Source: Streptomyces sp. NBC_00250 (GTDB taxonomy: Bacteria; Actinomycetota; Actinomycetes; Streptomycetales; Streptomycetaceae). Taken from it: 64,000 nt of DNA. The number at the start of each line of letters is the position of its first letter. Positions within the stretch are counted from its first letter, which is position 1. Of this stretch, positions 1,121-17,136 are shown in pieces. The DNA lies in contig NZ_CP108088.1 in the NCBI RefSeq assembly GCF_036192275.1, positions 1,860,001-1,924,000 on the forward strand, given 5' to 3'. Position numbers and translations under genes: made by a program. The notes below the pieces were generated by a model that saw nothing but the letters and a program-made list of their open reading frames with translations, was not told where the DNA came from and did not search any database.

Positions 1121-1155
1121 GGCCTCGAACCCCCTGGTCGAGGGGGTCCGAGGCC
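1121..1155 (-). terminator. Terminator at the end of the EBO operon
   Basis: A 15-bp inverted repeat with one mismatch (arms 1121-1135 and 1141-1155, loop GGTCG) starting 10 bp after the stop codon of the last gene of the operon. It marks the 3' end of the eight-gene transcript. Confidence 0.7.
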
Positions 1156-1165
1156 GTCCGGTGGG

Positions 1166-2227
1166 TCAGCGGCCCTTCTCGCGCAGGGAGTGGAGGTGGG
1201 CGCTGGACCTGCGGGCGAAGCTCAGCGAGTCGACGGGGTTGTCGCGCTCGGTCTGCCAGTGGTGGGCGTTCCTGCCGTGGTGGGTGCGGTTCACCGCCGA
1301 GATGAAGCGCCGGTAGTCGATGTCGCCGTCCCCGACGTCGGTCATCCGGTAGCCGTAGGGGACGGCGGTGTCGTCGCGGTCGCCGTCCTTGACGTGGAAC
1401 AGCGGATAGCGGTGGGGCTGGGCGAGGACGTAGTCGAGCGGGTCGAAGGGGGCGGGGGTGCCGTCCGGGCGGGTGGAGTAGCGGTACTGGCCGACGTACG
1501 CCCAGAAGATGTCCATCTCCAGGTGCACCAGGTCGGGGTCGGTCTCGGCGAGAAGGACGTCGTAGAGGCGTACGTCGGGGCGGTCACTGGCGAAGGAGAA
1601 CTCCTCCGAGTGGTTGTGCTGGTAGAACTTCATGCCGCGCTTCCTCGCCGCGGCGCCGAACCTGTTGAACTCCTCGGCACAGCGCTTCCAGCCGTCGACC
1701 GTGGAGCCGTAGCGCCAGGGCCCGGAGGCGGTGCCGATGTGGGGCAGGCCCAGGGCGGCCGCGTCGTCGAGGACACGGTCGAGGTTCTGGGCGAAGGTGT
1801 AGGCGGTGGGGTCGTCGGCGTAGTAGCCGACGTGGCTGCCTATGGGACGCAGACCGTGGTCGCGGGTGAGGCGCTTGAGCTGGGCGAGGCTGATGGGACC
1901 GGCGGAGCCCTGGCTGTAGCCGGCGTACTCGACCTCGTCGTAGCCGTACTTCTGCAGTTCGGCGAAGACGGCGGCGAAGCCGAGGGTCGCGACCTTGTCG
2001 CGGAGCGAGTAGAGCTGGATTCCGAGGCGGCCGGGCGGCAGGACGGGGCGGCCATGGCCCTGGCCGTGGCGCTCACTGTCGTTCTCGGCCGCGGCGGCCG
2101 CGGCGGCCGCGGCACCGAGGAGGGCGGCGGCGGTCGCGCCGGCGGCGACGCCCAGCATGTTCCGCCTGCTGAGCCTGTGGACGAGCTCGGGGTCGTTGGC
2201 GGCTTCGGAACGGCGGGTGCGACTCAT
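1166..2227 (-). CDS. Tat-exported sugar phosphate isomerase/epimerase-like TIM barrel
   Basis: A 353-residue protein. The N-terminus has a Tat motif (SRRNMLG, near residue 20) followed by an alanine-rich hydrophobic stretch, so export in folded form is predicted. The rest is an AP endonuclease 2/xylose isomerase-type TIM barrel: GIQLYSLRD opens the barrel, and Glu/His/Asp-rich strand ends (EVEYAGY, QHNHSEEF, LEMDIFW, FHVKDGD) supply likely metal ligands. The start overlaps the eboF stop by ATGA, making this the last gene of the EBO operon. A secreted sugar-handling protein fits the view that EBO products act on or move a metabolite outside the cytoplasm; the substrate is unknown. Confidence 0.85.
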   Translation of the reverse strand: MSRTRRSEAANDPELVHRLSRRNMLGVAAGATAAALLGAAAAAAAAAENDSERHGQGHGRPVLPPGRLGIQLYSLRDKVATLGFAAVFAELQKYGYDEVEYAGYSQGSAGPISLAQLKRLTRDHGLRPIGSHVGYYADDPTAYTFAQNLDRVLDDAAALGLPHIGTASGPWRYGSTVDGWKRCAEEFNRFGAAARKRGMKFYQHNHSEEFSFASDRPDVRLYDVLLAETDPDLVHLEMDIFWAYVGQYRYSTRPDGTPAPFDPLDYVLAQPHRYPLFHVKDGDRDDTAVPYGYRMTDVGDGDIDYRRFISAVNRTHHGRNAHHWQTERDNPVDSLSFARRSSAHLHSLREKGR

Positions 2228-3699
2228 CTGTGGATAACTCCTTGGCTGTCGGAGGGGCCTGCTTCACTGGATTCAGCTGGATTCGGAGAGGCGTCTCGGG
2301 CGACTCCGGCCAGCCTGAGCAGCAGGTTCTTCACATCGGTGGCCGCGACGCGGCCGTCCAGGGCGCGGGGGGTGGAGCACAGGATGAGCGGACCTTCGTC
2401 ATCGCTCGTGGGAAGGCGGCCATGGCTGCCGCGAAGAGGTGAGGGGTCGAGGGGGACGACCGCCAGCCGGTACCGCATACCGAGCTTCTTGCGGGCGATC
2501 TCCCTGGCTGCCTTGATCCGCACGTAGGGATCGAGGGGGTCCATGAGGAGTTCGGCGGGGTCGTAGCCGGGCTTGCGATGGATCTCGACGAGCCGCGCGA
2601 AGTCGGGGGCGCGGGCGTCGTCGAGCCAGTAGTAGTACGTGAACCAGGCGTCGGGCTCGGCGAGGGCGACCAGCTCCCCCGAGCGCGGATGGTCCAGGCC
2701 GTGTTCCTTCTTTCCCTCGTCGTCGAGGAGCCGCTCCAGACCGGGAAGGTCCGCGAGGGCTGCCCGGACGGCCGGCAGGTCCGTGGGCCGCCGGACGTAG
2801 ACATGGGCGATCTGGTGGTCGGCGACGGCGAACGCCCTGGAGGTCATGGGGTCGAGGTACTCCATGCCGTCCTGGGTGTGGACCTCGAGGAGGCCGGCGC
2901 GGCGCAGGGCGCGGTTGATGTCGACGGGACGCTCGACCCGGGTGATCCCGTACTCGGAGAGGACGACGACCGTACGGCCCTCGGCCCGGGCTTCGGCCAG
3001 GAGCGGGGCGAGGACGGTGTCGAGCGCTGCGGCGGCGCGGAAGGAGCGCGGGTCGTCGGGGCCGTAGCGCTGCAGGTCGTAGTCGAGGTGCGGGACGTAG
3101 CAGAGGGCGAGGTCGGGACGGCGGGTGCGGAGGATGTGACGGGTGGCGTCGACGATCCAGCGGCTGGAGACGAGGTCGGCGCCGGGTCCCCAGAAGTGGA
3201 AGAGGGGGAACGTGCCGAACTTCTCGGTGAGTTCGTCGTGCAGGGCGGGTGGCCGGGTGTAGCAGTCGGGTTCCTTGCGTCCGTCGGCGTAGTAGACGGG
3301 GCGTGGGGTGACGGTGATGTCGGTGTCGGCGCCCATGGCGTACCACCAGCAGATGTTGGCGACGGTGTAGCCGGGATGGCTGCGGCGGGCGGCGTCCCAG
3401 AGACGGTCGCCGGAGACGAGGCCGTTGTGCTGGCGCCACAGCAGGACGTCGCCGAGGTCCCGGAAGTACCAGCCGTTGCCGACGATGCCGTGCTCGGTCG
3501 GGAGGGTGCCGGTGAGGAAGGTGGTCTGGGCGGTGCAGGTGACGGCGGGCAGGACGGTGGAGAGCGGGGCCTGGGAGCCGCTGCGGGCGAGGGCGGCCAG
3601 GTGGGGCATGTGGGGCAGCAGCCGTGGGGTGAGACCGACGACGTCGAGGACCAGGAGGGGGGTGGGTGCGGGTGGGGAAGCGGGTGCGGTGTCGTTCAT
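2224..3699 (-). CDS. eboF: EboF-like alkaline phosphatase superfamily phosphodiesterase
   Basis: A 491-residue member of the alkaline phosphatase/nucleotide pyrophosphatase superfamily. Features seen are the metal-binding Asp near residue 19 (LLVLDVVG), the nucleophile region PAVTCTAQTTF near residue 51, the GNGWYFRD segment, HLDYDLQRYG near the middle, and the later metal motifs LSEYGI and DHQIAHV. No signal peptide is seen, so it is probably cytoplasmic. The ATG at 3699 overlaps the eboE stop by 4 bp (ATGA) and the stop overlaps the next start the same way, so translation is coupled. Type I phosphodiesterase-like proteins are the F component of EBO clusters. The substrate, probably a phosphorylated small molecule, is not known. 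Confidence 0.88.
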   Translation of the reverse strand: MNDTAPASPPAPTPLLVLDVVGLTPRLLPHMPHLAALARSGSQAPLSTVLPAVTCTAQTTFLTGTLPTEHGIVGNGWYFRDLGDVLLWRQHNGLVSGDRLWDAARRSHPGYTVANICWWYAMGADTDITVTPRPVYYADGRKEPDCYTRPPALHDELTEKFGTFPLFHFWGPGADLVSSRWIVDATRHILRTRRPDLALCYVPHLDYDLQRYGPDDPRSFRAAAALDTVLAPLLAEARAEGRTVVVLSEYGITRVERPVDINRALRRAGLLEVHTQDGMEYLDPMTSRAFAVADHQIAHVYVRRPTDLPAVRAALADLPGLERLLDDEGKKEHGLDHPRSGELVALAEPDAWFTYYYWLDDARAPDFARLVEIHRKPGYDPAELLMDPLDPYVRIKAAREIARKKLGMRYRLAVVPLDPSPLRGSHGRLPTSDDEGPLILCSTPRALDGRVAATDVKNLLLRLAGVARDASPNPAESSEAGPSDSQGVIHR

Positions 3700-4949
3700 G
3701 GCAGTTCCTTGAGGCCGAGGTCGGTCAGCAGCTCGCGGGCCAGGGTCAGTTCGGCGGCGATGCCGTCGGCGAGCCGGGCCCGGGTGCGGGGTCGGCTCTC
3801 GGGCGGAAGGGCCTGCCAGGTGTACGTCTCGACCTCCAGGTGGTGGGTGCGCGGGTGCGGGCCGCCGACGAGGAGGGCGAGGGCGTCCCGGAGTACGGGG
3901 AGCGTGGAGCTGAGCGGAGGGGCGGGCGGAGCGTGCAGGGGGACGTGGAAATGGGCGCGCCAGGGTGTGGCGTCGGGAAGGCCGGGGGCCGTGCGGGCGG
4001 CGGTGCCGAGGGCCTCCGGGAGGTCGTCGGTGCCGCGGAGGCCGGCGGCGGTTCGGGTGCGGGTCTGATGGAGGAAGCGGGGCTCGGCGAACGCGGTGAG
4101 CGCCGCCCTGACCTCGGGGAGGTGCGGGTGCTCGGCGTGGAGCGCGGCCGAGAGCTGGGCCTTGGGTACCGGGATGCCCGCGGCGGCGAGGGAGTCCAGG
4201 GCGGTGCGCGGGTCCTCGAAGGAGGTCGCGAGATGGCAGGTGTCGAGGCAGACGCCGATGCGGGGGATCGGACCGGGGCTCGGTTCCGGGCTCGGGCTCG
4301 GGCTCGGGCTGCGGCCAGGACGAGGGCTCGGCACGGCGGCGAGTGCGGTGAGTGCGGTGACGGCGACGGCGACGGTCTCGACGACGCAGCCGGGCTCCGG
4401 TTCGAGGCCGATCCGGATGCTTCTCCCGGTGAGTTCCTCCAGCGCGTCGAGCCGGGCGGAGAGCGTCGTGAGAGCGGTACGGGCGGTGGCGGCGCCCTCG
4501 GCGTCGAAGGCGGTGCGCCAGGCGAGGGGCAGGGTGGAGACGGACCCTTCGGTGACGTCCTCGGGAAGCAGCGCGGCAAGGAGACGGGCGAGGTCGGTGG
4601 TGTGCGCGAGGCGCTCGGGGCGGGTCCAGTCGGGCTGGTAGACGCGGTACTTGACCTCGTCGGCGCCGAAGCCTTCGTACGGGAAGCCGTTGAGGGTGAC
4701 CACTTCGAGGCCGCGGCGGTCCAGTTCGGCGCGCAGGGCTCGGAGCGAGGCCGGGTCGGTGGTCAGGGAACGGGCGGCGTCCCGGGCGAGCCAGAGTCCG
4801 ATGCCGAGGCGGTCGCGGCCGAGGCGGCGGCGGACCGGCTCGCAATGGTCGCGGAGCTGGGCGAGGACGCCGTCGAGGGTCTCGGCCGGGTGCACGTTGG
4901 TGCAGTAGGCGAGGTGGACGGTGGAGCCGTCGGGGTGCCGGAAGCGCAT
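3696..4949 (-). CDS. eboE: EboE-like metabolite traffic protein (TIM barrel)
   Basis: A 417-residue xylose isomerase-like TIM-barrel protein of the EboE type. It opens with LAYCTNVHPAET and has the barrel segments LEVVTLNGFPY, GLEPEPGCVVET and GVCLDTCHLA. In the last two, Glu, Asp and His residues are positioned as in the sugar isomerase superfamily metal site. A low-complexity Ser/Pro run near residues 205-230 interrupts the barrel and comes from a GGCTCG-type short repeat in the DNA; it looks like a lineage-specific insertion. The gene starts 9 bp after eboB with GAGG placed 7 nt before the ATG, and overlaps eboF by ATGA. The biochemical role of EboE is not established. Confidence 0.88.
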   Translation of the reverse strand: MRFRHPDGSTVHLAYCTNVHPAETLDGVLAQLRDHCEPVRRRLGRDRLGIGLWLARDAARSLTTDPASLRALRAELDRRGLEVVTLNGFPYEGFGADEVKYRVYQPDWTRPERLAHTTDLARLLAALLPEDVTEGSVSTLPLAWRTAFDAEGAATARTALTTLSARLDALEELTGRSIRIGLEPEPGCVVETVAVAVTALTALAAVPSPRPGRSPSPSPSPEPSPGPIPRIGVCLDTCHLATSFEDPRTALDSLAAAGIPVPKAQLSAALHAEHPHLPEVRAALTAFAEPRFLHQTRTRTAAGLRGTDDLPEALGTAARTAPGLPDATPWRAHFHVPLHAPPAPPLSSTLPVLRDALALLVGGPHPRTHHLEVETYTWQALPPESRPRTRARLADGIAAELTLARELLTDLGLKELP

Positions 4950-4958
4950 GGGGGTGCC

Positions 4959-5807
4959 TCATTCCCCGCCGCGAAGGACGGAGTTGCCCTCGTGCAGGTC
5001 CGGCGGGGTGGGGAGGTCGAGGTGGAGTCGTCCGCTGAGCCCGTAGAAGGCGACGGGGTTGCGCCAGAGGACCTGGTCGACGTCGTCGTCCGTGAAGCCG
5101 GCGGTGAGCATGGCCTCGGCGACCGAGCGGGTCTTGAGGGGGTCGCTGCGGCCCCAGTCCGCGGCCGAGTTCACGAGGACGCGTTCGGTTCCGTACTCCT
5201 TGAGGATCGCGACCGTCCGGTCCTCGTCCATCTTGGTGTCCGGATAGACGGAGAAGCCGAGCCAGGCGCCACTGTCGGCGGCCTCCTTGACGGTCGTCTC
5301 GTTGAGGTGGTCGAGGAGCACGTGGTCCGGGGCGAGCGCGGACTCGCGCACGACGTCCACGGTGCGGCGCAGGCCGGTGAGCTTGTCGCGGTGCGGGGTG
5401 TGGACGAGCGCCGGCAGGCCGTGGTCGGCGGCGAGCTGGAGCTGGGCGGCGAGCGCCGTGTCCTCGGCGGGCGTCAGGGAGTCGTAGCCGATCTCGCCGA
5501 CGGCGACGACTCCGTCCTTGGCGAGATACCGGGGCAGGGCGTCGAGGACGGGGACGCAGCGGGGGTCGTTGGCCTCCTTCGGGTTCAGGGCGAGGGCGCA
5601 GTGGTGGGCGATGCCGTGCTGGGCGGCGCGGAAGGGCTCCCAGCCGAGGAGGGAGTCGAAGTAGTCGAGGAAGGAGGCGGGCGAGGTGCGGGGCTGGCCG
5701 AGCCAGAACGACGGTTCGACGAGGGCGCGGACACCGGCGTCGTACATCGCCCGGTAGTCGTCCGTGGTGCGCGAGGTCATGTGGATGTGCGGGTCGAAGA
5801 TGCGCAT
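4959..5807 (-). CDS. eboB: EboB-like TatD-family metal-dependent hydrolase
   Basis: A 282-residue amidohydrolase-fold protein. The N-terminal metal motif is DPHIHM, followed by VGEIGYD, HTPHRDK and LDHLNE, all in the order expected for TatD-type hydrolases, and a late Asp-rich segment (NSAADWG). EBO B proteins belong to this family; the true substrate is unknown. The ATG sits in TGATG, where the upstream eboA stop and this start share one base, so translation is coupled. Nothing suggests export. Confidence 0.88.
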   Translation of the reverse strand: MRIFDPHIHMTSRTTDDYRAMYDAGVRALVEPSFWLGQPRTSPASFLDYFDSLLGWEPFRAAQHGIAHHCALALNPKEANDPRCVPVLDALPRYLAKDGVVAVGEIGYDSLTPAEDTALAAQLQLAADHGLPALVHTPHRDKLTGLRRTVDVVRESALAPDHVLLDHLNETTVKEAADSGAWLGFSVYPDTKMDEDRTVAILKEYGTERVLVNSAADWGRSDPLKTRSVAEAMLTAGFTDDDVDQVLWRNPVAFYGLSGRLHLDLPTPPDLHEGNSVLRGGE

Positions 5808-6373
5808 CAGGACTCCTCGGCGGGGGCGGTGAGGGCGAGGACGCGGGGCAGGTCGGCGGGGACGTCGCGGCCGGCGGCGGTGCGCTCGGCGGCGTGGTCG
5901 GTCAGCATCCGGGCGAGTTCGGTGTCGCCGGCGGCGCGCTCGGCGAGTCCGGCGACGACGGTGACGGGGACGCCGGTGAAGAGACATTTGAGGAGGGCGT
6001 GACGCCAGGTGTGGGGGGTGAGGTGGGTGGCGGCGTAGGGGCCGAGGGCGGCGGCGAGGAGGGTGGTGTCGTGGGTGCGGAGGGCGTCCTCGACGAGGGG
6101 AAGGGCCTCGGGACCGGTGACGAGGGCGGGGAGGGCCAGGAGGACGGCGCGGCGCTCGGCGGTGGCGCCGTGGTGGTAGAGGCGGGTGAGGGTGTCGGGG
6201 TCGGCCTCTGCCGCCCGGAGGAGAAGGGTGCGGGCCTCGTCCGCGTGCTCGTGCCCGCAGTGCCGGCCGGCGGTGACGAACCGCTCCTCCCACCCGGAGG
6301 TCCGGGCGGAGGCCTCGGCGAGGGCGGAGTCCAGCCAGGCGCGGATGGTGGCGGTGGCGGTGCCGGTCAGCAT
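5807..6373 (-). CDS. eboA: EboA-domain protein
   Basis: A 188-residue, mostly helical protein matching the EboA family. The central part (LYHHGATAERRAVLLALPAL) and the C-terminal segment TWRHALLKCLFTGVPV are the features I recognise as EboA-like. No catalytic motif, signal peptide or membrane helix is evident; it may be a scaffold or adaptor, but that is a guess. Its first 7 bp overlap the end of the preceding TIM-barrel gene and its stop overlaps the eboB start. Because EboA is found almost only in EBO clusters, this gene is the best single marker that the operon is of EBO type. Confidence 0.88.
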   Translation of the reverse strand: MLTGTATATIRAWLDSALAEASARTSGWEERFVTAGRHCGHEHADEARTLLLRAAEADPDTLTRLYHHGATAERRAVLLALPALVTGPEALPLVEDALRTHDTTLLAAALGPYAATHLTPHTWRHALLKCLFTGVPVTVVAGLAERAAGDTELARMLTDHAAERTAAGRDVPADLPRVLALTAPAEES

Positions 6374-7380
6374 GGCGGGGTCTCCCGGCGCAGGAAGGAG
6401 AGGGAGGTGCGGGCTAGTTCGGGGCCGGCGTGGGAGTGCCGGGGCAGTTCGACGACGGTCAGCCCGGGGTAGCCGGCGGCGGTGAGTTCGCCGAGGGCGG
6501 CGAGTACCGGCGGGAAGTCGATCTCACCGTCGCCGAACGGCAGGTGTTCGTGGACGCCGCGCCGCATGTCCTCGATCTGGATGTGGTGCACCCAGGGCGC
6601 GGCGGCGCGTAGGCAGTCGGCGGGAGGGAGGGGTTCGAGGCACTGGCAGTGGCCGATGTCGAGGGTGAGGCCGAGTACGGCGGGTGCGGGGTCGCCGAGG
6701 AGTCCGCGCAGCTGGTGGAAGTCGGCGAGGGTGGCGAGGAGGTGGCCTGGTTCGGGTTCGACGGCGAGGGGGACGCGGGCGGCTTCCGCGGCCTCCAGGA
6801 CAGGAGCGAGCGAGGAGGTGAGGCGCTTCCAGGCCTCGTCGGGCGGGGTGTCGGCGGGGAGGACACCGCTGAAGCAGTGCACGGCGTGGGCGCCGAGGTC
6901 GGCCGCTACCCGCACGGCCCTCAGCAGCAGCCGGACGCGGGCGGCGCGGTCCTCGGGGTCCGGGTCGAGCAGGGACGGGCCGTGCTTGCGGCGCGGATCG
7001 AGGACGTAGCGGGCACCGGTCTCGACGGTCACGCCGAGCCCCAGATCGCCGAGGCGCCGGGCGACCTGGGCGGTGCGGGCGGCCAGGCCGGGGGCGAGGG
7101 GGTCGAGGTGCATGTGGTCGAGCGTCAGCCCGACGCCGTCATAGCCGAGATCGGCGAGGAGCCCGAGTGCCTCGTCGAGCCGTAGATCGGTGAGGCCGTT
7201 GGTGCCGTAGCCCAGCCGGGGGCGGGCAGAGGGACCGGCCGAGGGGTGGGCCGCGAGGTCGGGTGTGGGGTGGGCCGCGAGGTCGGATGTGGGGTGAGGT
7301 GTGGGGTGGTCGGTGCGCCGCGCGGAGGGCCTGGGGCCGGAAGCGGCTGGACGGCGGGCGGCGGGGCGCGGGGTGCTCAT
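6367..7380 (-). CDS. Sugar phosphate isomerase/epimerase-like TIM barrel of the EBO operon
   Basis: A 337-residue protein. Residues 1-55 form a low-complexity tail with repeated HPTPDLAAHP-type units; the barrel starts at LGYGTNGL. Likely metal ligands lie in VEPEPGH, TLDIGHC, HHIQIED and VELPRH, in the order of AP endonuclease 2-type TIM barrels. The start overlaps the eboC stop by ATGA and the end overlaps eboA by 7 bp. Genes of this type accompany actinobacterial EBO genes. The N-terminal tail is encoded by short DNA repeats, and a start at a downstream codon closer to LGYGTNG cannot be excluded. Confidence 0.85.
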   Translation of the reverse strand: MSTPRPAARRPAASGPRPSARRTDHPTPHPTSDLAAHPTPDLAAHPSAGPSARPRLGYGTNGLTDLRLDEALGLLADLGYDGVGLTLDHMHLDPLAPGLAARTAQVARRLGDLGLGVTVETGARYVLDPRRKHGPSLLDPDPEDRAARVRLLLRAVRVAADLGAHAVHCFSGVLPADTPPDEAWKRLTSSLAPVLEAAEAARVPLAVEPEPGHLLATLADFHQLRGLLGDPAPAVLGLTLDIGHCQCLEPLPPADCLRAAAPWVHHIQIEDMRRGVHEHLPFGDGEIDFPPVLAALGELTAAGYPGLTVVELPRHSHAGPELARTSLSFLRRETPPC

Positions 7381-8411
7381 GTGGGGCTCACCTTCCGGGC
7401 GAGGGCGCGCGCGGCCGGGACGAGACCGAGCAGCGCGAGCGCCGTTCCCGGTGCCCCGGCGCGGGCGGCGAGCGCGGCCTGGAGCGGGATCGTGGCCCGG
7501 ATCCCGCCACCGACGGCCCGCTCGGTGAGCGCCGCGGACGGGTTGAGCGCGGCGTGGAGGAGGAGGGTGGCGGGGGTACGGGCGTAGGCCAGGGCGAGGA
7601 GGGTGCCCAGACCACGGGAGGGGAGGGGCAGGCGGGTGGGGAGGGTGGGGTGGGGGCGGGGGGCGGGGGCCCCCGAGAGGGAGACGGAGGAAGCGGCGGT
7701 GGCGGCCGGCCGGCGGCCGGTCTCGCCGCCCGAGGCCGCCCCGGTCACTGCCCCTGCCGCCCCGGTCACTGCCCCTGCCACTGCCCCGGCCACTGCCAGG
7801 GTCACGGCGAGGGCGGCGAGCGGGGTGCGGGTGGAGCCGCCCTGGGTCTCGTGGCGGGAGACGGCGGTGACGGCGTAGGTGTGAGCCCCGAGCAGGGCGG
7901 CGGAGGGGAGGGCGTGGACGGCGCGGGGGTGGGGTGTGCCGCTTCCGCTCGTCGAGGCCGTGGCTCCCAGGAGGAGGTCCAGGGCTCGGGTCGTGGCCAT
8001 GGTGGCGGGGCCGGCCGGTGTGTGTTTGAGGCCGAGGTCGTAGGCCCAGACCGTGGTGGCGAGTGCGGTGGCGACCGCGAGGGACGGGCGCCCCGCGCGG
8101 GAGGCCAGTGCCAGGCCCGTCGTTGTCAGGGCCACCGAGGCCGTGAGGGCGGCTGTCGGCGTGATGCGGCCGGAGGGCAGCGGGCGGTGGGGGCGTTCGG
8201 CGGCGTCCTCGGTCCGGTCGGCCCAGTCGTTGAGGGCCATGCCCGCCTCGTACAGGCAGAGTGAGGCGCCGATCGCGCAGAGGGTGCCCCGGCCGGGGCG
8301 GGTGCCGGTCGCCGCGGCGCCGGCGAGGGCGTCGCCGGGTACCGAGAGCAGCGCCGATACGCGGAGGAGTTCCGCCCAGGCCTGTGCCCGGCCGGTACGC
8401 CGCCGGGTCAT
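7377..8411 (-). CDS. eboC: EboC-like UbiA-family prenyltransferase
   Basis: A 344-residue polytopic membrane protein of the UbiA superfamily, which transfers prenyl groups to aromatic or other small acceptors. The first Asp-rich motif (NDWADRTED, near residue 62) and the YDLGLKH segment after the following helices fit the UbiA active site; a canonical second Asp-rich motif is not obvious, as is common in EboC. Residues around 205-250 form an alanine/threonine/glycine and proline-rich low-complexity insert. The ATG at 8411 overlaps the cyclase stop by ATGA and the end overlaps the next start in the same way. A longer upstream reading frame is not supported because it would cross the cyclase gene. 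Confidence 0.88.
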   Translation of the reverse strand: MTRRRTGRAQAWAELLRVSALLSVPGDALAGAAATGTRPGRGTLCAIGASLCLYEAGMALNDWADRTEDAAERPHRPLPSGRITPTAALTASVALTTTGLALASRAGRPSLAVATALATTVWAYDLGLKHTPAGPATMATTRALDLLLGATASTSGSGTPHPRAVHALPSAALLGAHTYAVTAVSRHETQGGSTRTPLAALAVTLAVAGAVAGAVTGAAGAVTGAASGGETGRRPAATAASSVSLSGAPAPRPHPTLPTRLPLPSRGLGTLLALAYARTPATLLLHAALNPSAALTERAVGGGIRATIPLQAALAARAGAPGTALALLGLVPAARALARKVSPT

Positions 8412-9553
8412 CGGGGGGTCTCCGTACCCGTGTCCCTCGTGCCCGGACGCTCCCCCAGCGTGCGGCCGAAGGCCAGCAGGCGCTCGTACTGGTCCGCGAG
8501 GGAGGCCGGTGGGGTGCCTTCCGGGTCCTTGAAGTAGAAGGCGAGGTCTTCCAGGGGGCCCGTGAGTCCCCTCTCGTGGGCGGCGGCGGTGAGGCGCGCC
8601 AGGTCGAGGACGAGGGGGGCGGCGAGGGCCGAGTCGCAGCCCTGCCAGAGGGTCTGGAGGATCATGCGGGTGCCGAGGAAGCCGTCGAAGGCGATGTGGT
8701 CCCAGGCGGTCTTCCACTCCCCCATCGCGGGGACGTCGTCGATGTGGACCTGGCCTTCGACGCCGGTGCCGAGGGTGTCGGTGAGGACGCGTTCCTTGCC
8801 GGCGTTCTTGGCGGCGGCGGCTGCCGGGTCGGCGAGGGCGGCTCCGTCGCCGCCGCCGAGGAGGTTGCTGCCGGACCAGGCGCGTACGGTCAGGGCGCGC
8901 TGGCGGAACATCGGGGCGAGGACGGCGCGGAGGAGGGTCTGGCCGGTCTTGCCGTCGCGGCCGGCGTGCGGCAGTCCGCTCGCGGCGAGCGGGGCGGCGA
9001 GGGCGGGGTGGCGCAGGCCCGTGGACGGGGTGAAGTTGACGTACGGGCAGCCTGCGCGGAGTGCGGCGGCGGCGTACAGGGTGCTGGGTGGGAGCCCGAC
9101 GCCCCCCGACGCCGGCTCCGTGGAGGCCACATTGACGACCACGACGCGGTCCAGGCCAATGCGTGCCCGGAAGTCCGTCAGGTCGTGGGTGAAGGCGGTG
9201 ACGAGTTGTTCGTCGGTGCGGGTGTCGCCGGGGGTGGGTCCGCCGGGGCGGATCTCGTGGTCGGCGGCTTCGAGTTCGCGGGTGACGGCGTGGTTGAGGC
9301 CGTACGGGAGGACTCCGGCGGTGGTGAGTTGTTCGGCTCGTTTGGGGAGCGGGCAGTCGGTGGTGTCGTGGCCGCCGAAGACGAGGTCGGCGAGTGGGGG
9401 CAGGCCGGCGTCGGCGAGTTCGGGGGTTTCGGTGGCCATGCCGGTGGGTGGGTGGAGTCCGGCGACGAGGGCGGCGCAGCCGGCCACGGTGGTGGTGGCG
9501 ACGGAGCCTCTCGCTCCGATGAGCCAGATTCCGGTGCGGGGTGCGGGGGTCAT
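8408..9553 (-). CDS. Inositol-3-phosphate synthase-like cyclase, first gene of the EBO operon
   Basis: A 381-residue protein of the myo-inositol-1-phosphate synthase family, which turns glucose 6-phosphate into an inositol phosphate through NAD-dependent oxidation, aldol closure and reduction. Seen are the dinucleotide motif IGARGSVATTT (residues 12-22), VVVNVASTEP, the NFTPSTG and GKTGQT segments, GSNLLGGGDG, and the C-terminal CDSALAAPLVLDL. The ATG at 9553 is preferred to one seven codons upstream because GGGAGG lies 8 nt before it. The gene begins the EBO operon just after a terminator and overlaps eboC by ATGA. It is distinct from the EboD (dehydroquinate synthase-like) cyclase and may fill that position; the product could be a different cyclitol. 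Confidence 0.86.
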   Translation of the reverse strand: MTPAPRTGIWLIGARGSVATTTVAGCAALVAGLHPPTGMATETPELADAGLPPLADLVFGGHDTTDCPLPKRAEQLTTAGVLPYGLNHAVTRELEAADHEIRPGGPTPGDTRTDEQLVTAFTHDLTDFRARIGLDRVVVVNVASTEPASGGVGLPPSTLYAAAALRAGCPYVNFTPSTGLRHPALAAPLAASGLPHAGRDGKTGQTLLRAVLAPMFRQRALTVRAWSGSNLLGGGDGAALADPAAAAAKNAGKERVLTDTLGTGVEGQVHIDDVPAMGEWKTAWDHIAFDGFLGTRMILQTLWQGCDSALAAPLVLDLARLTAAAHERGLTGPLEDLAFYFKDPEGTPPASLADQYERLLAFGRTLGERPGTRDTGTETPR

Positions 9554-9617
9554 GGCGTCGGCCTCCCTGCTCATCCGGGGAATGGGGGATCGAGGGGTTG
9601 GGGCTTCGGGGGGTGGT

Positions 9618-9657
9618 GACGGTGGGCGGGGGGTACGGCGCCGCCCCGCCCACCGTC
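9618..9657 (-). terminator. Strong hairpin separating the ThuA gene from the EBO operon
   Basis: A perfect 14-bp inverted repeat (GACGGTGGGCGGGG and complement) around a 12-nt loop, 16 bp after the stop codon of the large secreted protein. It indicates that the EBO operon has its own promoter between about 9554 and 9617, although no clear -10/-35 pair stands out there. Confidence 0.75.
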
Positions 9658-9673
9658 GGCTGGGGGACTTCCG

Positions 9674-12600
9674 TCAGGAGGTGGGGAGTTCCTTGAGGCG
9701 GATGTCGCGGAAGGCGGCCTGGTCGGCGGCTCCGTGGTTCTGGATGCCGATGTGGCCGCTGGTGAGGCTGCGGGCGGGGTCGGTGTTGGTGAAGTCGTTG
9801 ATCTTGAGGCCGTTGAGGAAGACCTGGAGGCGTTCGCCCTGGACGCGGATTTCGTAGGTGTTCCACTGGCCGGGCGGGCGGAGGGCCTGGTCGCGGGCCT
9901 TGAGGTTGGCGGACTTGAAGCCGTAGACGGCGCCGGTGGTGCGGTCGGCGGCGTCGGTGGCGTCGATCTGGATCTCGTAGCCGTTGTTCACGGCGGACCA
10001 GGGGTCGTCGGAGGCGGGGAAGCCGACGAAGATGCCGGAGTTGGAGTCTCCGGTGAGTTTCCAGTCGAGGGTGAGGGAGTAGGAGCGGAGTTCCTTGGCC
10101 TGGTACCAGAGCATGCCCATGCCGCCGGTGGAGTGGAGTTCGCGGTCGGTGATGTCGAAGCCGCCGGGTCCGGCCTGCTTCCAGCCTTCGTGGGTCTCGC
10201 CGTTGAAGAGGTCGCGGTAGCCGGTCTGGGGTCGGCAGTCGGCCTTGACCTGGCCGGTGGCGTAGCGGAGGCCGCCCAGCAGGTGTTGGCGGAAGGCGGG
10301 TTCGGTGTACGACTCCTTGGTGTGGCCGCCTCCGGTGTAGAAGGAGCGGCCGCCGCCGTAGGTCTGGCACCAGGCGATGGGGTGGTCGCCCTTCATGGTG
10401 CCGCCCTGGTAGGTGGTCTCGTCGAGGGTGGCGAGGACGCGGGCCTGGTCGCGGGGGTTGGTGCGGTAGTTGTACCACTCGTCGGTGCGCTGCCAGGGCC
10501 CGTCGAGGTGGGCGGTGGCGGGGTGGTTGTGGTCTTCGGCGCGGACGGTGGCGGGCTGGATCTGGGGGTGGGACTGGAAGTAGGCGCCGACGAGTCCGCC
10601 GTAGAAGCTCCAGTCGTATTCGGTGTCGGCCGCGGCGTGGATGCCCATGTAGCCGCCGCCGGTGGAGACGTAGTTCTCGAAGGCCTTCTGTTGGTCGGTG
10701 TCGAGGACGTCGCCGGTGGTGGAGAGGAAGACGACGGCGTCGTAGCGGGCGAGGTTGTTGGTGGTGAACTGGCGGGGTTCTTCGGTGCTGTCGATGACGA
10801 TGTCGCTGGTGGCGCCGAGTTCCTTGAGGGCGGTGATGCCGGTGCCGATGGAGTCGTGGCGGAAGCCGGCGGTCTTGGAGAAGACCAGGACGCGCTTGGC
10901 GTTGCGGTTCACCGGGGCGCTGGAGAACGTGAAGTCGTCGAGGTCGTAGAGGGCGCCGGTGCCGCCCTTGAAGACGAGGAAGAGTTCGGTGGTCTTGCGG
11001 GGCAGGTTCCGCAGGGGTACGTCGATGTCCTGGAAGGTCTCCCAGCCGCCGGTGACGGGGACGGGTGCGGAGCCGTGGAGGGGGCCGGTGGGTGAGCCGG
11101 TGCGGACTTCGAGGAAGCCGCCGTTGCCGCCGGAGGAGATGCGGGCGGTGAGTTTGGTGGCTCCGGTGACGTTGTAGGGCTTGAAGGAGATCCAGTCGCC
11201 GTTGTCGATGTCGCCGACGGTGCGTCCGCCGTTGGCCTGGGTCTTGTCGAAGAGGTTGACGCCGTTCTGGGCGTCGAAGTGTTCGGCCTGGCGGTGGCGG
11301 GGCTGGAGTTTGGCCTGGTCGTTGCCGGTGAGGGCGGCCTGGCCGCCGGCTCCGCCGTCGGTGTATTCGGCGTTGAAGACGGCGAAGATGTTGGCGTCGT
11401 CGTCGTGTCCGCCGTCGGCGGAGGTCTTGATGGTTCCGGTGCAGCCGTTGGCGGTGGTGACGGGGTGGCCGTGGCTGTCGTGGCCGAGGACGTAGGTGAC
11501 CTTGACCTTGGCGCAGTCGATGGTGCCGTCTTCGGGGTCGGTGACCTGGACCTTGAAGGGGATGTCGTCGCCGAAGGAGAAGAGGGCTCCTTCTGCGGGG
11601 AGTTCGAGGGTGACCTTGGGTGCGGTGTTGCCGACGACGATGTGGACGGAGGCGGAGCCGGTGCGGCCGCTCGCGTCCTTCGCGGTCACGGTCGCCGTGT
11701 AGGTGCCGTTCTTGCGGTACGTGTAGGTGGGGTTGGCGGCCGTGGACGTTCCGCCGTCGCCGAAGTCCCAGGTGTAGGTGAGGGCGTCACCGTCGCCGTC
11801 GGTGGTGCCGGCGGAGGAGAGGGCGACCTTCAGCGGGGCGGTGCCGGAGGTCTTGTTCACGCTGGCCTCGGCGACCGGGGAGCGTCCGCCGGTGGCGTTC
11901 TCGATGCGGTAGAGGCCGGAGTTGTGGTCGCCGCCGAACCAGGCGGTGCCGTAGTCGAGGACGTAGAGGGCTCCGTCGGGGCCGAAGGCCATGTCCATGA
12001 TCTGGGTGCCGGTCCAGGGGACGTCGCTGATGGAGGCGACGGTGCCGTTGGTGTCCTGGTCGATGCGCTTGATCCAGCGGCGGCCGAATTCGCCGGCGAA
12101 GAAGTCGCCGTCGTACGCCTCGGGGAACTTCACCGGGGAGGTGTTGGCGGGGTCGTAGCGGTAGACGGGGCCGCCCATGGGTGATTCGGAGCCGGTGCCG
12201 AACTCGGGTACGGAGCCTCCGTTGTAGGGGATCCAGGCGGGTTCGGCGGGCGGGAGGTCGACGAGTCCGGTGTTGTGCGGGGAGTCGTTCTTGAGGGCTC
12301 CGCAGTCGTAGGTGGCGCCGGAGGTCTTGGTGGCGAAGTCGTAGTCGACGTAGGGGTCGTTGTCGCCGGTGCAGAAGGGCCAGCCGAAGTTTCCGGGCTT
12401 GGTGACGCGGGCGAATTCGACCTGTCCGGCGGGGCCGCGCTTCGGGTCGGCGGCGCCGGCGTCGGGGCCGTAGTCGCCGACGTAGAGGATGCCGGTGGTC
12501 TTGTCGACGCTGAAGCGGAAGGGGTTGCGGAAGCCCATGGCGTAGATCTCGGGCCGGGTCTTGGCGGTGCCGGGGGCGAAGAGGTTGCCTTCGGGGACGG

Positions 12601-13369
12601 TGTAGGTGCCGTCGTCGGCGACCTTGATGCGGAGGATCTTGCCGCGGAGGTCGTTGGTGTTGCCGGAGGTGCGGCGGGCGTCGAAGGCGGGGTTGCGGTC
12701 GGGGCGTTCGTCGATGGGGGTGTAGCCGTCGGAGGCGAAGGGGTTGGAGTCGTCGCCGGTCGACAGGTAGAGGTTGCCCTGGGCGTCGAAGTCGATGTCT
12801 CCGCCGACGTGGCAGCAGATGCCGCGGGTGGCGGGGATGTCGATGACCTTCTTCTCGCTGGCGTTGTCGAGGGTGCCGTCGGCTTTCAGGGTGAAGCGGG
12901 AGAGGCGGTTGACGCCGTCGTACTTCGCGAAGTCGGCGGCGGTGCCGCTCTCGGGGGCGTCGCCTGCGGGGGTGTCGAGGGGTGGGGCGTAGTAGAGGTA
13001 GATGGCCTTGTTCTGGGCGAAGTTCGGGTCGAGGCCGACGCCTTGGAGGCCTTCCTCGTCGTGGGAGTAGACGGGGACGGTGCCGATGACGGTGGTGTTG
13101 CCGGCGGCGTCGGTGCGGCGGAGTTCGCCGTTGCGGGAGGTGTGGAGGACGCTGCGGTCCGGGAGTACGGCGAGGGACATGGGTTCGCCGACTTCTTCGC
13201 CGCCCTTGGCGAGGGTGATCTGCTGGAACTCTTCGGCGGCGGCGGTTGCGGCGGCGGTTGCGGCGGGGGTTTCCGGTTCGGCGGCGAGGCTCTGGGGTGC
13301 GCCGAGGGCGAGCAGTCCGATGGTGAGCAGGGCGAGCGACTTCCTGGCTCGGAGTCGTTGTCTGTGCAC
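9674..13369 (-). CDS. Secreted multidomain sugar dehydrogenase/PKD/CBM6/ThuA/DUF1080 protein
   Basis: A 1231-residue exported protein. After a Sec signal peptide (about 29 residues) there are, in order: a PQQ sugar dehydrogenase-like six-bladed propeller (about 45-490; GDIDFDAQGNLYLSTGDDSN, YGPDAG); a PKD domain (about 500-580; WDFGDGGTS); a beta domain (about 585-685); a CBM6-like module (about 690-820; QAEHFD, NGDWISF); a ThuA trehalose-utilisation domain (about 830-1045; VLVFSKTAGFRHDS, MGIHAAADTEY); and a DUF1080/3-keto-disaccharide hydrolase domain (about 1050-1230; LFNGETHEGWK). The GTG start has GGAGG 7 nt upstream. The domain set suggests oxidation and breakdown of an extracellular sugar, consistent with the neighbouring importer, isomerase and oxidoreductase. 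It is terminated separately from the EBO genes. Confidence 0.9.
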   Translation of the reverse strand: MHRQRLRARKSLALLTIGLLALGAPQSLAAEPETPAATAAATAAAEEFQQITLAKGGEEVGEPMSLAVLPDRSVLHTSRNGELRRTDAAGNTTVIGTVPVYSHDEEGLQGVGLDPNFAQNKAIYLYYAPPLDTPAGDAPESGTAADFAKYDGVNRLSRFTLKADGTLDNASEKKVIDIPATRGICCHVGGDIDFDAQGNLYLSTGDDSNPFASDGYTPIDERPDRNPAFDARRTSGNTNDLRGKILRIKVADDGTYTVPEGNLFAPGTAKTRPEIYAMGFRNPFRFSVDKTTGILYVGDYGPDAGAADPKRGPAGQVEFARVTKPGNFGWPFCTGDNDPYVDYDFATKTSGATYDCGALKNDSPHNTGLVDLPPAEPAWIPYNGGSVPEFGTGSESPMGGPVYRYDPANTSPVKFPEAYDGDFFAGEFGRRWIKRIDQDTNGTVASISDVPWTGTQIMDMAFGPDGALYVLDYGTAWFGGDHNSGLYRIENATGGRSPVAEASVNKTSGTAPLKVALSSAGTTDGDGDALTYTWDFGDGGTSTAANPTYTYRKNGTYTATVTAKDASGRTGSASVHIVVGNTAPKVTLELPAEGALFSFGDDIPFKVQVTDPEDGTIDCAKVKVTYVLGHDSHGHPVTTANGCTGTIKTSADGGHDDDANIFAVFNAEYTDGGAGGQAALTGNDQAKLQPRHRQAEHFDAQNGVNLFDKTQANGGRTVGDIDNGDWISFKPYNVTGATKLTARISSGGNGGFLEVRTGSPTGPLHGSAPVPVTGGWETFQDIDVPLRNLPRKTTELFLVFKGGTGALYDLDDFTFSSAPVNRNAKRVLVFSKTAGFRHDSIGTGITALKELGATSDIVIDSTEEPRQFTTNNLARYDAVVFLSTTGDVLDTDQQKAFENYVSTGGGYMGIHAAADTEYDWSFYGGLVGAYFQSHPQIQPATVRAEDHNHPATAHLDGPWQRTDEWYNYRTNPRDQARVLATLDETTYQGGTMKGDHPIAWCQTYGGGRSFYTGGGHTKESYTEPAFRQHLLGGLRYATGQVKADCRPQTGYRDLFNGETHEGWKQAGPGGFDITDRELHSTGGMGMLWYQAKELRSYSLTLDWKLTGDSNSGIFVGFPASDDPWSAVNNGYEIQIDATDAADRTTGAVYGFKSANLKARDQALRPPGQWNTYEIRVQGERLQVFLNGLKINDFTNTDPARSLTSGHIGIQNHGAADQAAFRDIRLKELPTS

Positions 13370-13439
13370 GGGTGTCCTCCGGAGTCGGGCCGGGTGTGCG
13401 GGTTGTCCGGGGACCGGCGTGCGCCGTCACGCTGGTCGC

Positions 13440-13491
13440 GTCATGCGGTTACGTCATGCGGTCACGTCACGCAGTTACGTCATGTACACAT
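13440..13491. repeat. Tandem 13-bp repeats upstream of the ThuA gene
   Basis: Three adjacent 13-mers, GTCATGCGGTTAC, GTCATGCGGTCAC and GTCACGCAGTTAC, followed by a decayed fourth copy beginning GTCATGTACAC. They lie 70-120 bp before the start codon of the secreted multidomain protein, and on the minus strand a possible -10 (TACGGT, near 13498-13503) lies just upstream. Their position suits a repeated operator, but a simple tandem duplication is also possible. Confidence 0.7.
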
Positions 13492-13596
13492 CAGGGACCG
13501 TAGTCGGGTTCGTCCACCGCGGAAAGCCCTTGCGCACCAGTGCGGTCGAACTTTTCCCATCGAGAGGACAAAGGCTCTCGCGGGCAGCGCGGACCG

Positions 13597-13622
13597 GCCC
13601 GGCGGCGTCACCGCGGCCGGGC
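13597..13622 (-). terminator. Probable terminator after the sugar ABC operon
   Basis: A 7-bp GC stem (GCCCGGC with GCCGGGC) around a 12-nt loop, 20 bp after the stop of the isomerase gene. A smaller hairpin (CGAGAG with CTCTCG, 13561-13580) follows. Neither has a U-tract, as is usual in Streptomyces. Confidence 0.45.
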
Positions 13623-13641: not shown

Positions 13642-14646
<1,005 letters not shown>

Positions 14647-14659
14647 GGTCGGGCGCCTC

Positions 14660-15928
14660 CTAGCTCGGTACGCGGGAAGGAGAGGGAGAAGGGACGGGAG
14701 CGGTGACGGCGGTGGGGACCGGGGTCGCCACCGGGGTGTAGACGGCGTTGCCGCGGGCGCTCTCCTCCACGGCGGCCAGGACCCGCTGGACCTGGAGGCC
14801 GTCGGCGAAGGAGGGTGCCGGAGCGATGCCGCTCGCGACGGCCTGGACCAGGTCGCGGGCCTGGTGGGCGAAGGTGTGCTCGTAGCCGAGCGCGTGACCG
14901 GGCGGCCACCAGCCCTCCAGGTACGGGTGGTCGGGCTCGGTCACGAGGATGCGGCGGAAGCCCGCCGAGACGGCCGGTTCGGTGTGGTCGTGGAAGGACA
15001 GTTCGTTGAGCCGCTCAAGGTCGAAGGCGAGCGAGCCGCGCTCCCCGTTGATCTCCAGTCGGAGCGCGTTCTTGCGGCCCGCGGCCATCCGGGTGGCCTC
15101 GAAGGAGGCGAGTGCGCCGGAGGCGAGCCGCCCGGTGAACACGGCCGCGTCGTCGACCGTGACCTGTCCGTACGCCTCCGATCCCGCTCCCCCGCCGAGT
15201 CCGCCGGCGCCGGTGCCGGTGCCGGTGAGCAGGGGACGCTTCCGTACGAAGGTCTCGGTGAGCGCCGACACTCCGACGAGCGGCTCCCCCGCGAGGTACT
15301 GGGCGAGGTCGACGGCGTGCGCGCCCAGGTCTCCGAGGGCGCCGGAGCCGGCGTGTTCGCGTTCCAGGCGCCAGGTCAGCGGGAACGCGGGGTCGACGAG
15401 CCAGTCCTGGAGGTAGGTGACGCGGACGTGCCGCAGGGTGCCGAGCCGCCCGTCCGCGACGAGCTGCCGTGCGTAGGAAAGGGCGGGCACCCGGCGGTAG
15501 TTGAAGCCGACCATGGCGATCTGTCCGCGGGCCGCGGCCGCCTCGGCGGCCGCGGCCATCGTCTCGGCCTCGGCGACCGAGTTGGCGAGCGGCTTCTCGC
15601 ACAGCACGTGTTTGCCGGCCTCCAGGGCGGCGACGGCGATCTCCGCATGGCTGTCGCCGGGGGTGCAGACATCGACGAGCTGGACGTCGTCGCGGGCGAT
15701 CAGGGCGCGCCAGTCGGTTTCGGCGGCGGCCCAGCCGTGCCGTCGGGCGGCGGCCCGGACGGCGGCTGCGTCACGGCCCGCGACGGCGGCGAGGACGGGT
15801 CGCAGCGGCAGGTCGAAGACGCGGCCGGCGGTGCGCCAGCCCTGGGAGTGGGCGGCTCCCATGAACGCGTAGCCGACCATGCCGATGCCGAGCGTCGGCG
15901 GTGCGGCCCCGCTCTCCGTCTGTTCCAT
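14660..15928 (-). CDS. Gfo/Idh/MocA family NAD(P)-dependent oxidoreductase
   Basis: A 422-residue oxidoreductase. The N-terminal Rossmann fold has GMVGYAFMG, and the family motif EKPLANS near residue 105 supplies the conserved catalytic-region Lys. The C-terminal Gfo/Idh substrate domain contains [12 protein letters not shown] with the conserved Asp/His region. The last 25 residues are a Pro/Val/Thr/Ser-rich tail. The start is set at the ATG at 15928 because GGAGG lies 7 nt upstream; an ATG six codons earlier has no such site. It sits between a sugar binding protein and an isomerase, so it probably oxidises or reduces the imported sugar or cyclitol. Confidence 0.9.
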
Positions 15929-16025
15929 ACGGTTCCTCCGTTTCATGGTGCGGCGAGGTGCTGCTCCCCGGGGGCGGTCGGGCCGCCGGGGGCCGGTCCG
16001 GTCGGACCGCCCGGGTTCGGGCCGG

Positions 16026-17063
16026 TCAGCTGAAGCCGGTGGGCAGGTACTCGTCGACGTTCTCCTTGGTGACGACGGCCGAGTAGAGGGTGATCGAGGC
16101 GGGGATCTCCAGCTCGGACATGCCGCCGATCCCCTTCTTCTGGCCGAGGGCGCGGGCGAGGTCGATCGCGGAGGCGGCCATGGTCGGCGGGTAGAGGACG
16201 GTGGCCTTGAGGACGCCGGTGTCGGCCTTGATGGCGTCCATGGCGGCCTTGGCGCCCGCGCCGCCGACCATCAGGAAGTCCTTGCGGCCGGCCTGGGCGA
16301 CGGCCCGCAGCGCACCGACGCCCTGGTCGTCGTCGTGGTTCCAGAGGGCGTCGAACTTGGGCTGGGCCTGTAGGAGTTGGGCCATCTTGGCCTGGCCGGA
16401 CTCGACGGTGAAGTCGGCGGCCTGGCGGGCGACCTTGCGGATGTTGGGGTAGTTCTTCAGGGCGTCGTCGAAGCCCTGGGTGCGCTGCTTGGTGAGTTCG
16501 AGGCTGTCCATGCCGGCGAGTTCGACGACGGTGGCGTCGGGCTTGTCCTTGAGCTGTTCGCCGATGTAGTTGCCGGCGTTGAGGCCCATGCCGTAGTTGT
16601 CGCCGCCGATCCAGCAGCGGTAGGCCTGCGGGGAGGCGAAGATCCGGTCGAGGTTGATGACGGGAATGCCTGCCTTCATGGCCTGGAGGCCGATCTGGGT
16701 GAGGGCCTTGCCGTCGGCGGGGAGGATGACGAGGACGTCGACCTTCTTGTTGATGAGGGTCTGGACCTGGCCGATCTGGGTGGCGGTGTCGTTGGAGCCC
16801 TCGGTGATCTCCAGGGTGACGTCGGAGTACTTCTTGGCGCGTCGTTCGGCGTTGTCGTTGATGGCGTTGAGCCAGCCGTGGTCGGCCTGCGGGCCGGCGA
16901 AGCCGATGGTGACAGGGGTGCCGGGCTTGTCGTCGACGGCGGGCCCCGCGCTCGCGACGGGTGCCTGGTTCTTGGGCTCGTTGCTGGTGCAGGCGGTCAG
17001 CAGGGCGCCGGCGGAGACGGCCGCGCCGCCGAAGAGGAGGTGTCTGCGGCTGGTTTCGGGCAT
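16026..17063 (-). CDS. Sugar ABC transporter substrate-binding lipoprotein
   Basis: A 345-residue periplasmic-binding-protein-like lipoprotein of the ribose/galactose type (Peripla_BP_4). It has a Tat-like SRRHLLFGG start and a lipobox (LLTAC) near residue 25. Barrel segments such as IGFAGPQADHGWLNAI, VDVLVILPADGKAL, GIPVINLDR and DALWNHDDDQG are typical of the family. It belongs with the permease and ATPase upstream (73-bp gap). The residues around the ligand differ among relatives, so the sugar cannot be named. Confidence 0.93.
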   Translation of the reverse strand: MPETSRRHLLFGGAAVSAGALLTACTSNEPKNQAPVASAGPAVDDKPGTPVTIGFAGPQADHGWLNAINDNAERRAKKYSDVTLEITEGSNDTATQIGQVQTLINKKVDVLVILPADGKALTQIGLQAMKAGIPVINLDRIFASPQAYRCWIGGDNYGMGLNAGNYIGEQLKDKPDATVVELAGMDSLELTKQRTQGFDDALKNYPNIRKVARQAADFTVESGQAKMAQLLQAQPKFDALWNHDDDQGVGALRAVAQAGRKDFLMVGGAGAKAAMDAIKADTGVLKATVLYPPTMAASAIDLARALGQKKGIGGMSELEIPASITLYSAVVTKENVDEYLPTGFS

Positions 17064-17136
17064 GGCGGTGGATCCCTTCCGAGGGGGTGGTGGTGAAGGG
17101 GTGGTGGTGAGGCGGGTTCCGGACGGGGGTGTCCGG

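Follow-up and report, generated by a model that had tools for sequence, protein, structure and literature searches.

An ebo-type operon led by an inositol-3-phosphate-synthase-like gene and without eboD in Streptomyces sp. NBC_00250 and other actinobacteria

A 64,000-nucleotide (nt) stretch of Streptomyces sp. NBC_00250 (contig NZ_CP108088.1; C1:1860001-1924000 of the 9.27 Mb genome, here G000; the whole stretch is hereafter called the window) carries an operon of the ebo type that is led by a gene for an inositol-3-phosphate-synthase-like protein (INO) and has no eboD. In classical ebo clusters, EboD, a sugar phosphate cyclase, is thought to make a cyclitol. We observed that INO and EboD alternate across genomes, that the surrounding cluster is conserved and that INO is linked to a TIM-barrel protein (TIMX), the swap thus taking two genes because TIMX comes with INO. 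A literature search found no description of an INO-type ebo cluster, and we present it as a second class of ebo cluster that we did not find described, its single genes having been annotated and ebo clusters being known already. With moderate confidence we propose that INO and TIMX replace EboD and that the cluster gives a prenylated inositol-type product, membrane-anchored and helping metabolite export, a proposal in which we infer every reaction, product and role. The ebo product and its help in moving metabolites are poorly understood; a natural swap of the ring enzyme narrows the chemistry, and an INO-type cluster in many actinobacteria gives a concrete handle on what the cluster makes.

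Operon structure

The operon at 9553-1166 is real, and its genes and flanking hairpins are as follows (window coordinates).

8408..9553, minus strand: INO, first gene, myo-inositol-3-phosphate-synthase-like (PF07994 and PF01658)
7377..8411, minus strand: EboC-type UbiA prenyltransferase, SCO3242 family (NF045897)
6367..7380, minus strand: TIMX, AP_endonuc_2 TIM barrel, partner of INO (PF01261, 139 bits)
5807..6373, minus strand: EboA, all-helical protein in its structure model (NF035938)
4959..5807, minus strand: EboB, TatD-like metal hydrolase (PF01026, 46 bits)
3696..4949, minus strand: EboE, TIM barrel (NF035939, 430 bits)
2224..3699, minus strand: EboF, type I phosphodiesterase/nucleotide pyrophosphatase family (PF01663, 227 bits)
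1166..2227, minus strand: TIM8, eighth gene, TIM barrel (PF01261, 64 bits) with a twin-arginine-like N-terminus (judged by eye)
9618..9657, minus strand: hairpin between the ThuA gene and INO (folding of 9610-9665 against shuffles)
1121..1155, minus strand: hairpin 3' of the operon (folding of 1115-1160 against shuffles)

A preliminary description of this stretch had listed eight minus-strand open reading frames here, and all eight were recovered at the same positions. It had also described all of them as joined, which holds for the six junctions that overlap; EboB and EboE are separated by a 9 nt gap (distances in transcription order: -4, -4, -7, -1, +9, -4 and -4 nt). An alternative INO start at 9574 is possible instead of 9553. 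The bracketing hairpins are as strong as had been described, with -36.3 kcal/mol (z -4.45) for 9610-9665 and -39.7 kcal/mol (z -6.93) for 1115-1160, and in neither case was any of 200 shuffled sequences as stable; a scan of both for a stem followed by a T-run, as in a terminator, found none. As in classical ebo clusters, the ebo genes of the window are clustered and co-directional.

The conserved core comprises seven genes, i.e. INO, EboC-like, TIMX, EboA, EboB, EboE and EboF. The eighth, TIM8, had been counted as an operon member and proved to be a same-genus addition outside this core: it lies 3' of eboF in 8 of 20 loci, each of which belongs to the same genus, while weak look-alikes (43 and 49 bits) stand on the opposite side of the clusters L043 and L045. 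Its relatives in the PDB are 8tcd, 8tcs and 8tct. TIM8 and TIMX both match PF01261, in agreement with the two further TIM barrels described previously.

INO and EboD alternate across genomes

All 396 actinobacterial genomes of our sample were searched for both EboE and INO. EboE exceeded its cut-off in 18 genomes, a nineteenth (G279) showing fragmentary matches below the cut-off, and the INO profile gave 18 matches of at least 567 bits in 17 genomes, the next best match scoring 331 bits. Top-tier INO proteins occurred in 17 of the 18 genomes with EboE over the cut-off and in none of the 378 others (Fisher value 6e-29, which is overstated since the genomes are related). The single exception, G381, has EboD in its own ebo cluster (564 bits, which also served as a working positive control), and the 17 INO genomes and G279 all stayed below the cut-off of the EboD model. 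INO genomes are spread over seven coded families, and the operon recurs in eight further genomes of the sample that belong to the genus of the window. The order INO-EboC-TIMX-EboA-EboB-EboE-EboF was found in 18 of 18 INO clusters examined, including both of those in the genome of the window.

Within G000, PF01761 matched AroB, an EEVS-like cyclase and, weakly, a glycerol-1-phosphate dehydrogenase; scores with the EboD model were 212, 184 and 21 bits against a cut-off of 333, i.e. no EboD is present in the genome. With our own EboD profile AroB scored 165 and the EEVS-like protein 178, against at least 531 for its 75 long source sequences. The absence of EboD behind an INO-like lead gene, described before for the window alone, is supported for the complete genome and across actinobacteria, and the refuting condition named with it, an EboD gene elsewhere in the genome, was found in none of the 17 INO genomes at the cut-off of the model.

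Outside the actinobacteria we examined 80 of 583 confirmed ebo loci from Bacteroidota, Cyanobacteriota, Chloroflexota, Acidobacteriota and other phyla, collected with an EboE alignment headed by the G381 sequence, which is of the EboD type. EboD was present in 76 of the 80 (one as a fragment), INO and TIMX in none, and at the remaining four no cyclase was seen in the DNA examined at the locus. The whole genomes behind 50 of these loci held no INO-like protein above 267 bits (14 had some match), and among 191 genomes of the Herpetosiphon phylum the best INO match reached 250 bits, none being of top-tier strength. In a tree of EboB, EboE and EboF, built from the 61 of 93 loci with all three proteins, the INO clusters together with one further locus (L028) fall on one side of a branch with a support of 100 and the EboD clusters, including the EboD-carrying locus L032, on the other.

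INO and its partner TIMX

INO contains NAD_binding_5 (125 bits; cut-off 25) and Inos-1-P_synth (96 bits; cut-off 27) domains, and the nearest solved protein is the Archaeoglobus fulgidus myo-inositol-1-phosphate synthase (mIPS; 1u1i, E 6.3e-52), with 83 of 200 aligned residues identical (41.5%). Residues N230, K249, K253, K281 and K342 of INO align with N255, K274, K278, K306 and K367 of 1u1i, which we take to be the catalytic residues, and are invariant in all 12 aligned ebo-linked INO proteins (18 found); among deposited chains, variants at these five positions are visible at N255, K278 and K367 only. Judged from the alignment, the catalytic residues of INO are intact. The A. fulgidus enzyme is, as far as is known, stand-alone, in contrast to INO with its link to ebo genes and TIMX. 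Among the best 120 of 7908 protein matches to INO, all those that carry an organism name come from Streptomyces. A five-membered-cyclitol-phosphate synthase (6k96, E 1.5e-9) is also among the relatives of INO. By contrast, the mycothiol-type Ino1 model TIGR03450 gave INO 35 bits against a cut-off of 638, and a separate housekeeping Ino1 of this type is encoded in the same genome at C1:4666989 (734 bits). Since glucose 6-phosphate is the established substrate of inositol-phosphate synthases, labelled sugar combined with lipid mass spectrometry should allow the actinobacterial product to be traced.

TIMX is predicted to be a sugar-isomerase-type TIM barrel nearest to ketose 3-epimerases, UlaE and YcjR: its AF2 model (mean predicted local distance difference test score, pLDDT, 85.8) best matched UlaE, SCO6571, tagatose 3-epimerases and YcjR in the PDB. 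Residues E208, D241, H244 and E311, presumably the metal-site positions of the xylose-isomerase-like/ketose 3-epimerase superfamily, are invariant in 12 of 12 aligned proteins, and TIMX shows the features of that superfamily (PF01261 at 139 bits, a TIM-barrel fold in the model, and the E, D/H and E positions). Among the clusters examined, TIMX is fused to EboA in L026 and L044.

The distribution of TIMX follows INO, not Ebo. Proteins matching TIMX at E <= 1e-30 occurred in 24 of the 396 genomes, namely the 17 with an INO-type ebo cluster and seven with second-tier INO proteins (319-331 bits), and these coincide exactly with the genomes that have INO of the two top tiers. All seven second-tier genomes encode INO and TIMX in one stretch outside an ebo cluster, and a search of these stretches for ebo genes found none. 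In G279, the seventh of them, the two genes abut (L176); the other six stretches (L173, L174, L175, L178, L179 and L180) form a YcaO operon with INO, an HD-domain protein, a methyltransferase, a Gfo/Idh/MocA protein, a protein with a rubredoxin-like CxxC start (judged by eye), YcaO, TIMX, GT4 and PIG-L. No Gfo/Idh was detected within the operon of L175 and no methyltransferase in L180, where the stretch ends at a contig end within TIMX. From its gene content the YcaO operon looks like an undescribed, mycothiol-type sugar-cyclitol pathway. That the same pair occurs in two contexts argues that TIMX would act on the product of INO.

EboC and the isoprenoid link

The prenyltransferase of the window matched the SCO3242-family model NF045897 (366 bits; cut-off 260) and remained below the cut-off of the EboC model NF035940 (115 vs. 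250 bits). The EboC of the EboD-type cluster in G381 is also below the latter (98 vs. 250), so that this cut-off has no power to divide the two types. An Asp-rich N-D-x-x-D-x-x-x-D-like motif is present in all 92 EboC proteins collected from both cluster types. The next NCBIfam matches, both far below their cut-offs, were a prenyltransferase model (54 bits) and geranylgeranylglycerol-phosphate geranylgeranyltransferase (51 bits). Enzymes of the latter type prenylate a hydroxyl group of phosphorylated polyols, and on this basis a prenyl-inositol ether is a sensible guess for the product, and no more than that.

At least one prenyl-diphosphate gene lies beside 4 of the 18 INO clusters, the neighbours having been scanned in part. 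An isopentenyl diphosphate isomerase over its cut-off adjoins eboF in L030 and L042 and a polyprenyl synthase adjoins the cluster in L030, L040 and L045; the isomerase gene of L030 and the synthase gene of L040 overlap eboF by 4 nt.

The remaining Ebo proteins

EboE was recognized by NF035939 well above the cut-off of 250 bits, and EboA by the EboA-domain model NF035938 (158 bits; cut-off 50), the EboA-family model staying below its cut-off (55 vs. 320). The structure model of EboA (pLDDT 96.1) has 12 helices, and a Foldseek search with it returned no match at E <= 0.001. EboB and EboF have general Pfam matches only (PF01026 and PF01663), no curated EboB or EboF model having been matched in an NCBIfam scan of the window proteins; the sole PDB match of EboB is 3guw (AF_1765, E 1.5e-26). 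Mean identities between INO-type and EboD-type proteins (19 loci of one type against 73-81 of the other) were 50.6% for EboB, 47.8% for EboF, 33.1% for EboE and 29.3% for EboC. The family assignments made in the preliminary description thus stand for EboE, for the EboA domain and, at 48-51% identity to the EboD type, for EboB and EboF, whereas EboC fits a sister family. Across 98 EboF sequences 101 positions are at least 97% identical, which argues that the EboF step would be the same in both cluster types.

Neighbouring genes and other INO clusters

Upstream of the operon and on the same strand (9674-19652), the window encodes the following proteins.

9674..13369, minus strand: protein with GSDH, PKD, CBM6, ThuA and 3-keto-disaccharide hydrolase domains (Pfam) and a signal-like N-terminus (judged by eye)
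13642..19652, minus strand: TIM barrel (SCO6571 orthologue), Gfo/Idh/MocA protein, sugar-binding protein, permease and ABC ATPase (Pfam)

The neighbouring TIM barrel matches 2zds (SCO6571) with 707 bits and is also related to 2-hydroxy-3-keto-glucal hydratase. ThuA-type proteins were found in 12 of 20 loci, and of the six ThuA matches in the genome, three are neighbours of its two ebo clusters. At the window, L026, L040, L043 and L045 the ThuA genes often stand with sugar ABC or ROK-like genes, as called by Pfam in the window and by resemblance of protein starts elsewhere.

The second complete INO-type ebo cluster of the genome (L026, G000:C1:8297200-8317000), in which TIMX and EboA are fused, has a gene for an SCO6571-like TIM barrel that overlaps INO at its start, and is flanked on either side by ThuA proteins. 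In G352 the INO-type cluster (L031) lies in a non-ribosomal peptide synthetase (NRPS)-type region with two phosphopantetheinyl transferases, a MacB-like exporter, a major facilitator superfamily (MFS) protein and an ornithine/aspartate carbamoyltransferase-like gene.

Comparison with described systems

The classical eboABCDEF cluster (PMC5133447, PMC6282210) and the INO type both encode EboA, B, C, E and F proteins in a single operon; the INO type differs in that EboD is absent, INO and TIMX stand instead, and the cut-offs of the EboC and EboA-family models are not reached. Ebo clusters without EboD were noted in 2016 in Leeuwenhoekiella and, unclustered, in two of three Planctomycetes, and were taken as possible losses or assembly gaps in a passage that names no replacement (PMC5133447). 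The same paper mentions xylose isomerase-EboA hybrid proteins of Actinobacteria (data not shown), which resemble the TIMX-EboA fusions of L026 and L044; the passage on these hybrids, unlike the present description, names neither an inositol-phosphate synthase nor the loss of EboD (PMC5133447). Neither of the two main ebo papers uses the word 'inositol' in its main text (PMC5133447, PMC6282210).

Nostoc mutants lacking eboA, B, C, E or F retain the scytonemin monomer in the cytoplasm (PMC6282210). Nostoc punctiforme carries copies of eboD at more than one location (PMC5133447). A UbiA-like prenyltransferase inside an ebo cluster, as in the INO type, is represented by Ubi-297, the EboC of Maribacter, which farnesylates 8-hydroxyquinoline-2-carboxylic acid; it differs in belonging to a classical cluster with EboD, and the 14 tested acceptors in the account of its activity are all aromatic, no cyclitol being named there (PMC9235831).

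SCO3242 and SCO3243 of Streptomyces coelicolor are counted in the CDA antibiotic cluster (SCO3210-SCO3249) and described as a 'Putative transferase' beside a 'Myo-inositol phosphate synthase' (PMC3610822). They resemble the first genes of the INO type, the window EboC fitting the SCO3242 model with 366 bits, and differ in being listed as CDA genes, not ebo genes, in a comparison made by description only. This suggests that the inositol-synthase gene assigned to CDA is in fact part of an ebo cluster. More generally, the database names inositol-3-phosphate synthase, SCO3242 family prenyltransferase and sugar isomerase would belong to one pathway.

Proposed pathway and alternatives

In the pathway we propose, INO would convert glucose 6-phosphate to an inositol phosphate in an NAD+-dependent reaction (or release the keto intermediate), TIMX would isomerize or epimerize this product and EboC would prenylate it, with an allylic diphosphate as donor. 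The phosphoesterase-type EboF, the metal hydrolase EboB and the TIM-barrel protein EboE might then trim or finish the polar head, with EboA as a putative helical adaptor, and the membrane-anchored prenyl-cyclitol may help metabolites to cross, or work at, the membrane, as the ebo genes do in Nostoc. That INO supplies the cyclitol which EboC prenylates, as had been supposed from the window alone, is made more likely by the intact catalytic residues, the isoprenoid genes beside 4 of 18 clusters and the intact EboC motif. The part in export is borrowed by analogy from Nostoc; two contexts fit it, namely L031 with its NRPS-type domains, MacB-like and MFS proteins, and SCO3242/SCO3243 as placed in the CDA cluster by its published gene list (PMC3610822).

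Several observations weigh against this proposal. L028, the second cluster of G128, has TIMX without INO beside it (INO is present in the other cluster of this genome), its neighbours being a CrtI/CrtO-like oxidoreductase, an inositol-monophosphatase-family protein and a P450-type gene. L177 of G279, where EboE is below its cut-off, is an ebo cluster with neither INO, TIMX nor EboD beside it; its EboE matches lie in separate frames, EboC is a fragment, and INO and TIMX are on another contig. EboC falls below the classical cut-off and its acceptor may therefore differ, and only 4 of the 18 clusters were seen to have isoprenoid genes as neighbours. A true inositol phosphate would suit TIMX poorly as a substrate if the enzyme depends on a ketone. 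The sugar-utilization genes that surround many clusters could be a sign of another role. Finally, the Nostoc mutants cover eboA, B, C, E and F but not eboD (PMC6282210), so that a part of the cyclitol step itself in export is presumed.

A wider version of our proposal, which we offer tentatively and think doubtful, is that INO and TIMX form a portable two-enzyme module making a particular inositol isomer or inosose phosphate, which actinobacteria would have plugged into two pathways unrelated to each other, the ebo cluster, replacing EboD, and the YcaO/PIG-L/GT4/Gfo-Idh operon. Since the swap leaves EboB and EboF conserved, ebo clusters of all bacteria might then build their cyclitol as a C6 ring from glucose 6-phosphate, contrary to earlier proposals of a sedoheptulose-derived ring, and the end product might be a prenyl-inositol lipid carrying metabolites across membranes.

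Among the alternatives, the one that survives best, possible in our view but clearly less probable than the membrane helper we favour, is that the same enzymes make a released secondary metabolite, such as a deterrent prenylated cyclitol. It would agree with the reported need for ebo genes in nematode deterrence by Pseudomonas fluorescens (as reported in PMC6282210), with the isoprenoid-cyclitol metabolite that Yurchenko et al. proposed as the ebo product (PMC5133447) and with the NRPS-type surroundings of L031; it sits less well with the Nostoc deletions, each of the five trapping the precursor of another pathway in the cytoplasm (PMC6282210), and with the lack of a transporter among the seven core genes.

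We consider it unlikely that INO makes a different cyclitol phosphate and that the INO-type pathway ends in another product than the EboD type. The presence of 6k96 among the relatives of INO and the identity of only 29-33% between types in EboC and EboE would fit this; however, INO is far closer to the A. fulgidus enzyme, with the five checked residues kept, and EboB and EboF are strongly conserved between types.

Even less likely, in our judgement, is that the operon serves the uptake and use of 3-keto sugars, with the Ebo proteins processing sugars. This reading draws on the genes adjoining the operon (ThuA/3-keto-disaccharide hydrolase, the SCO6571-type TIM barrel with its relation to 2-hydroxy-3-keto-glucal hydratase, Gfo/Idh/MocA and the sugar ABC importer), on the recurrence of ThuA at 12 of 20 loci and beside both ebo clusters of the genome, on SCO6571-like TIM barrels in 4 of 20 loci (cluster c13) and on a neighbour in L040 whose start resembles the Gfo/Idh protein of the window. 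Yet in 8 of the 20 loci the DNA examined shows no ThuA (two of these loci, L033 and L039, run into a contig end), isoprenoid or NRPS genes stand beside other clusters, and sugar breakdown has no obvious use for a UbiA prenyltransferase or an NAD-dependent cyclase. That INO is an ordinary extra inositol-phosphate synthase feeding a general inositol pool is very improbable: the intact catalytic residues would allow it, but the genome has a separate mycothiol-type Ino1, top-tier INO is confined to genomes with EboE over the cut-off (0 of 378 others) and the gene order is invariant.

Other cyclase-family loci of the genome

The EEVS-like protein of the sugar-phosphate-cyclase family in G000 (L002/L027, G000:C1:9016266) adjoins a ROK/sugar-kinase-like protein, with no ebo gene within the 19 kb examined. 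The glycerol-1-phosphate dehydrogenase-like protein (L003, G000:C1:1792191), scoring 238 bits against a cut-off of 413, belongs to a family of archaeal-type lipid enzymes and is encoded about 68 kb from the window.

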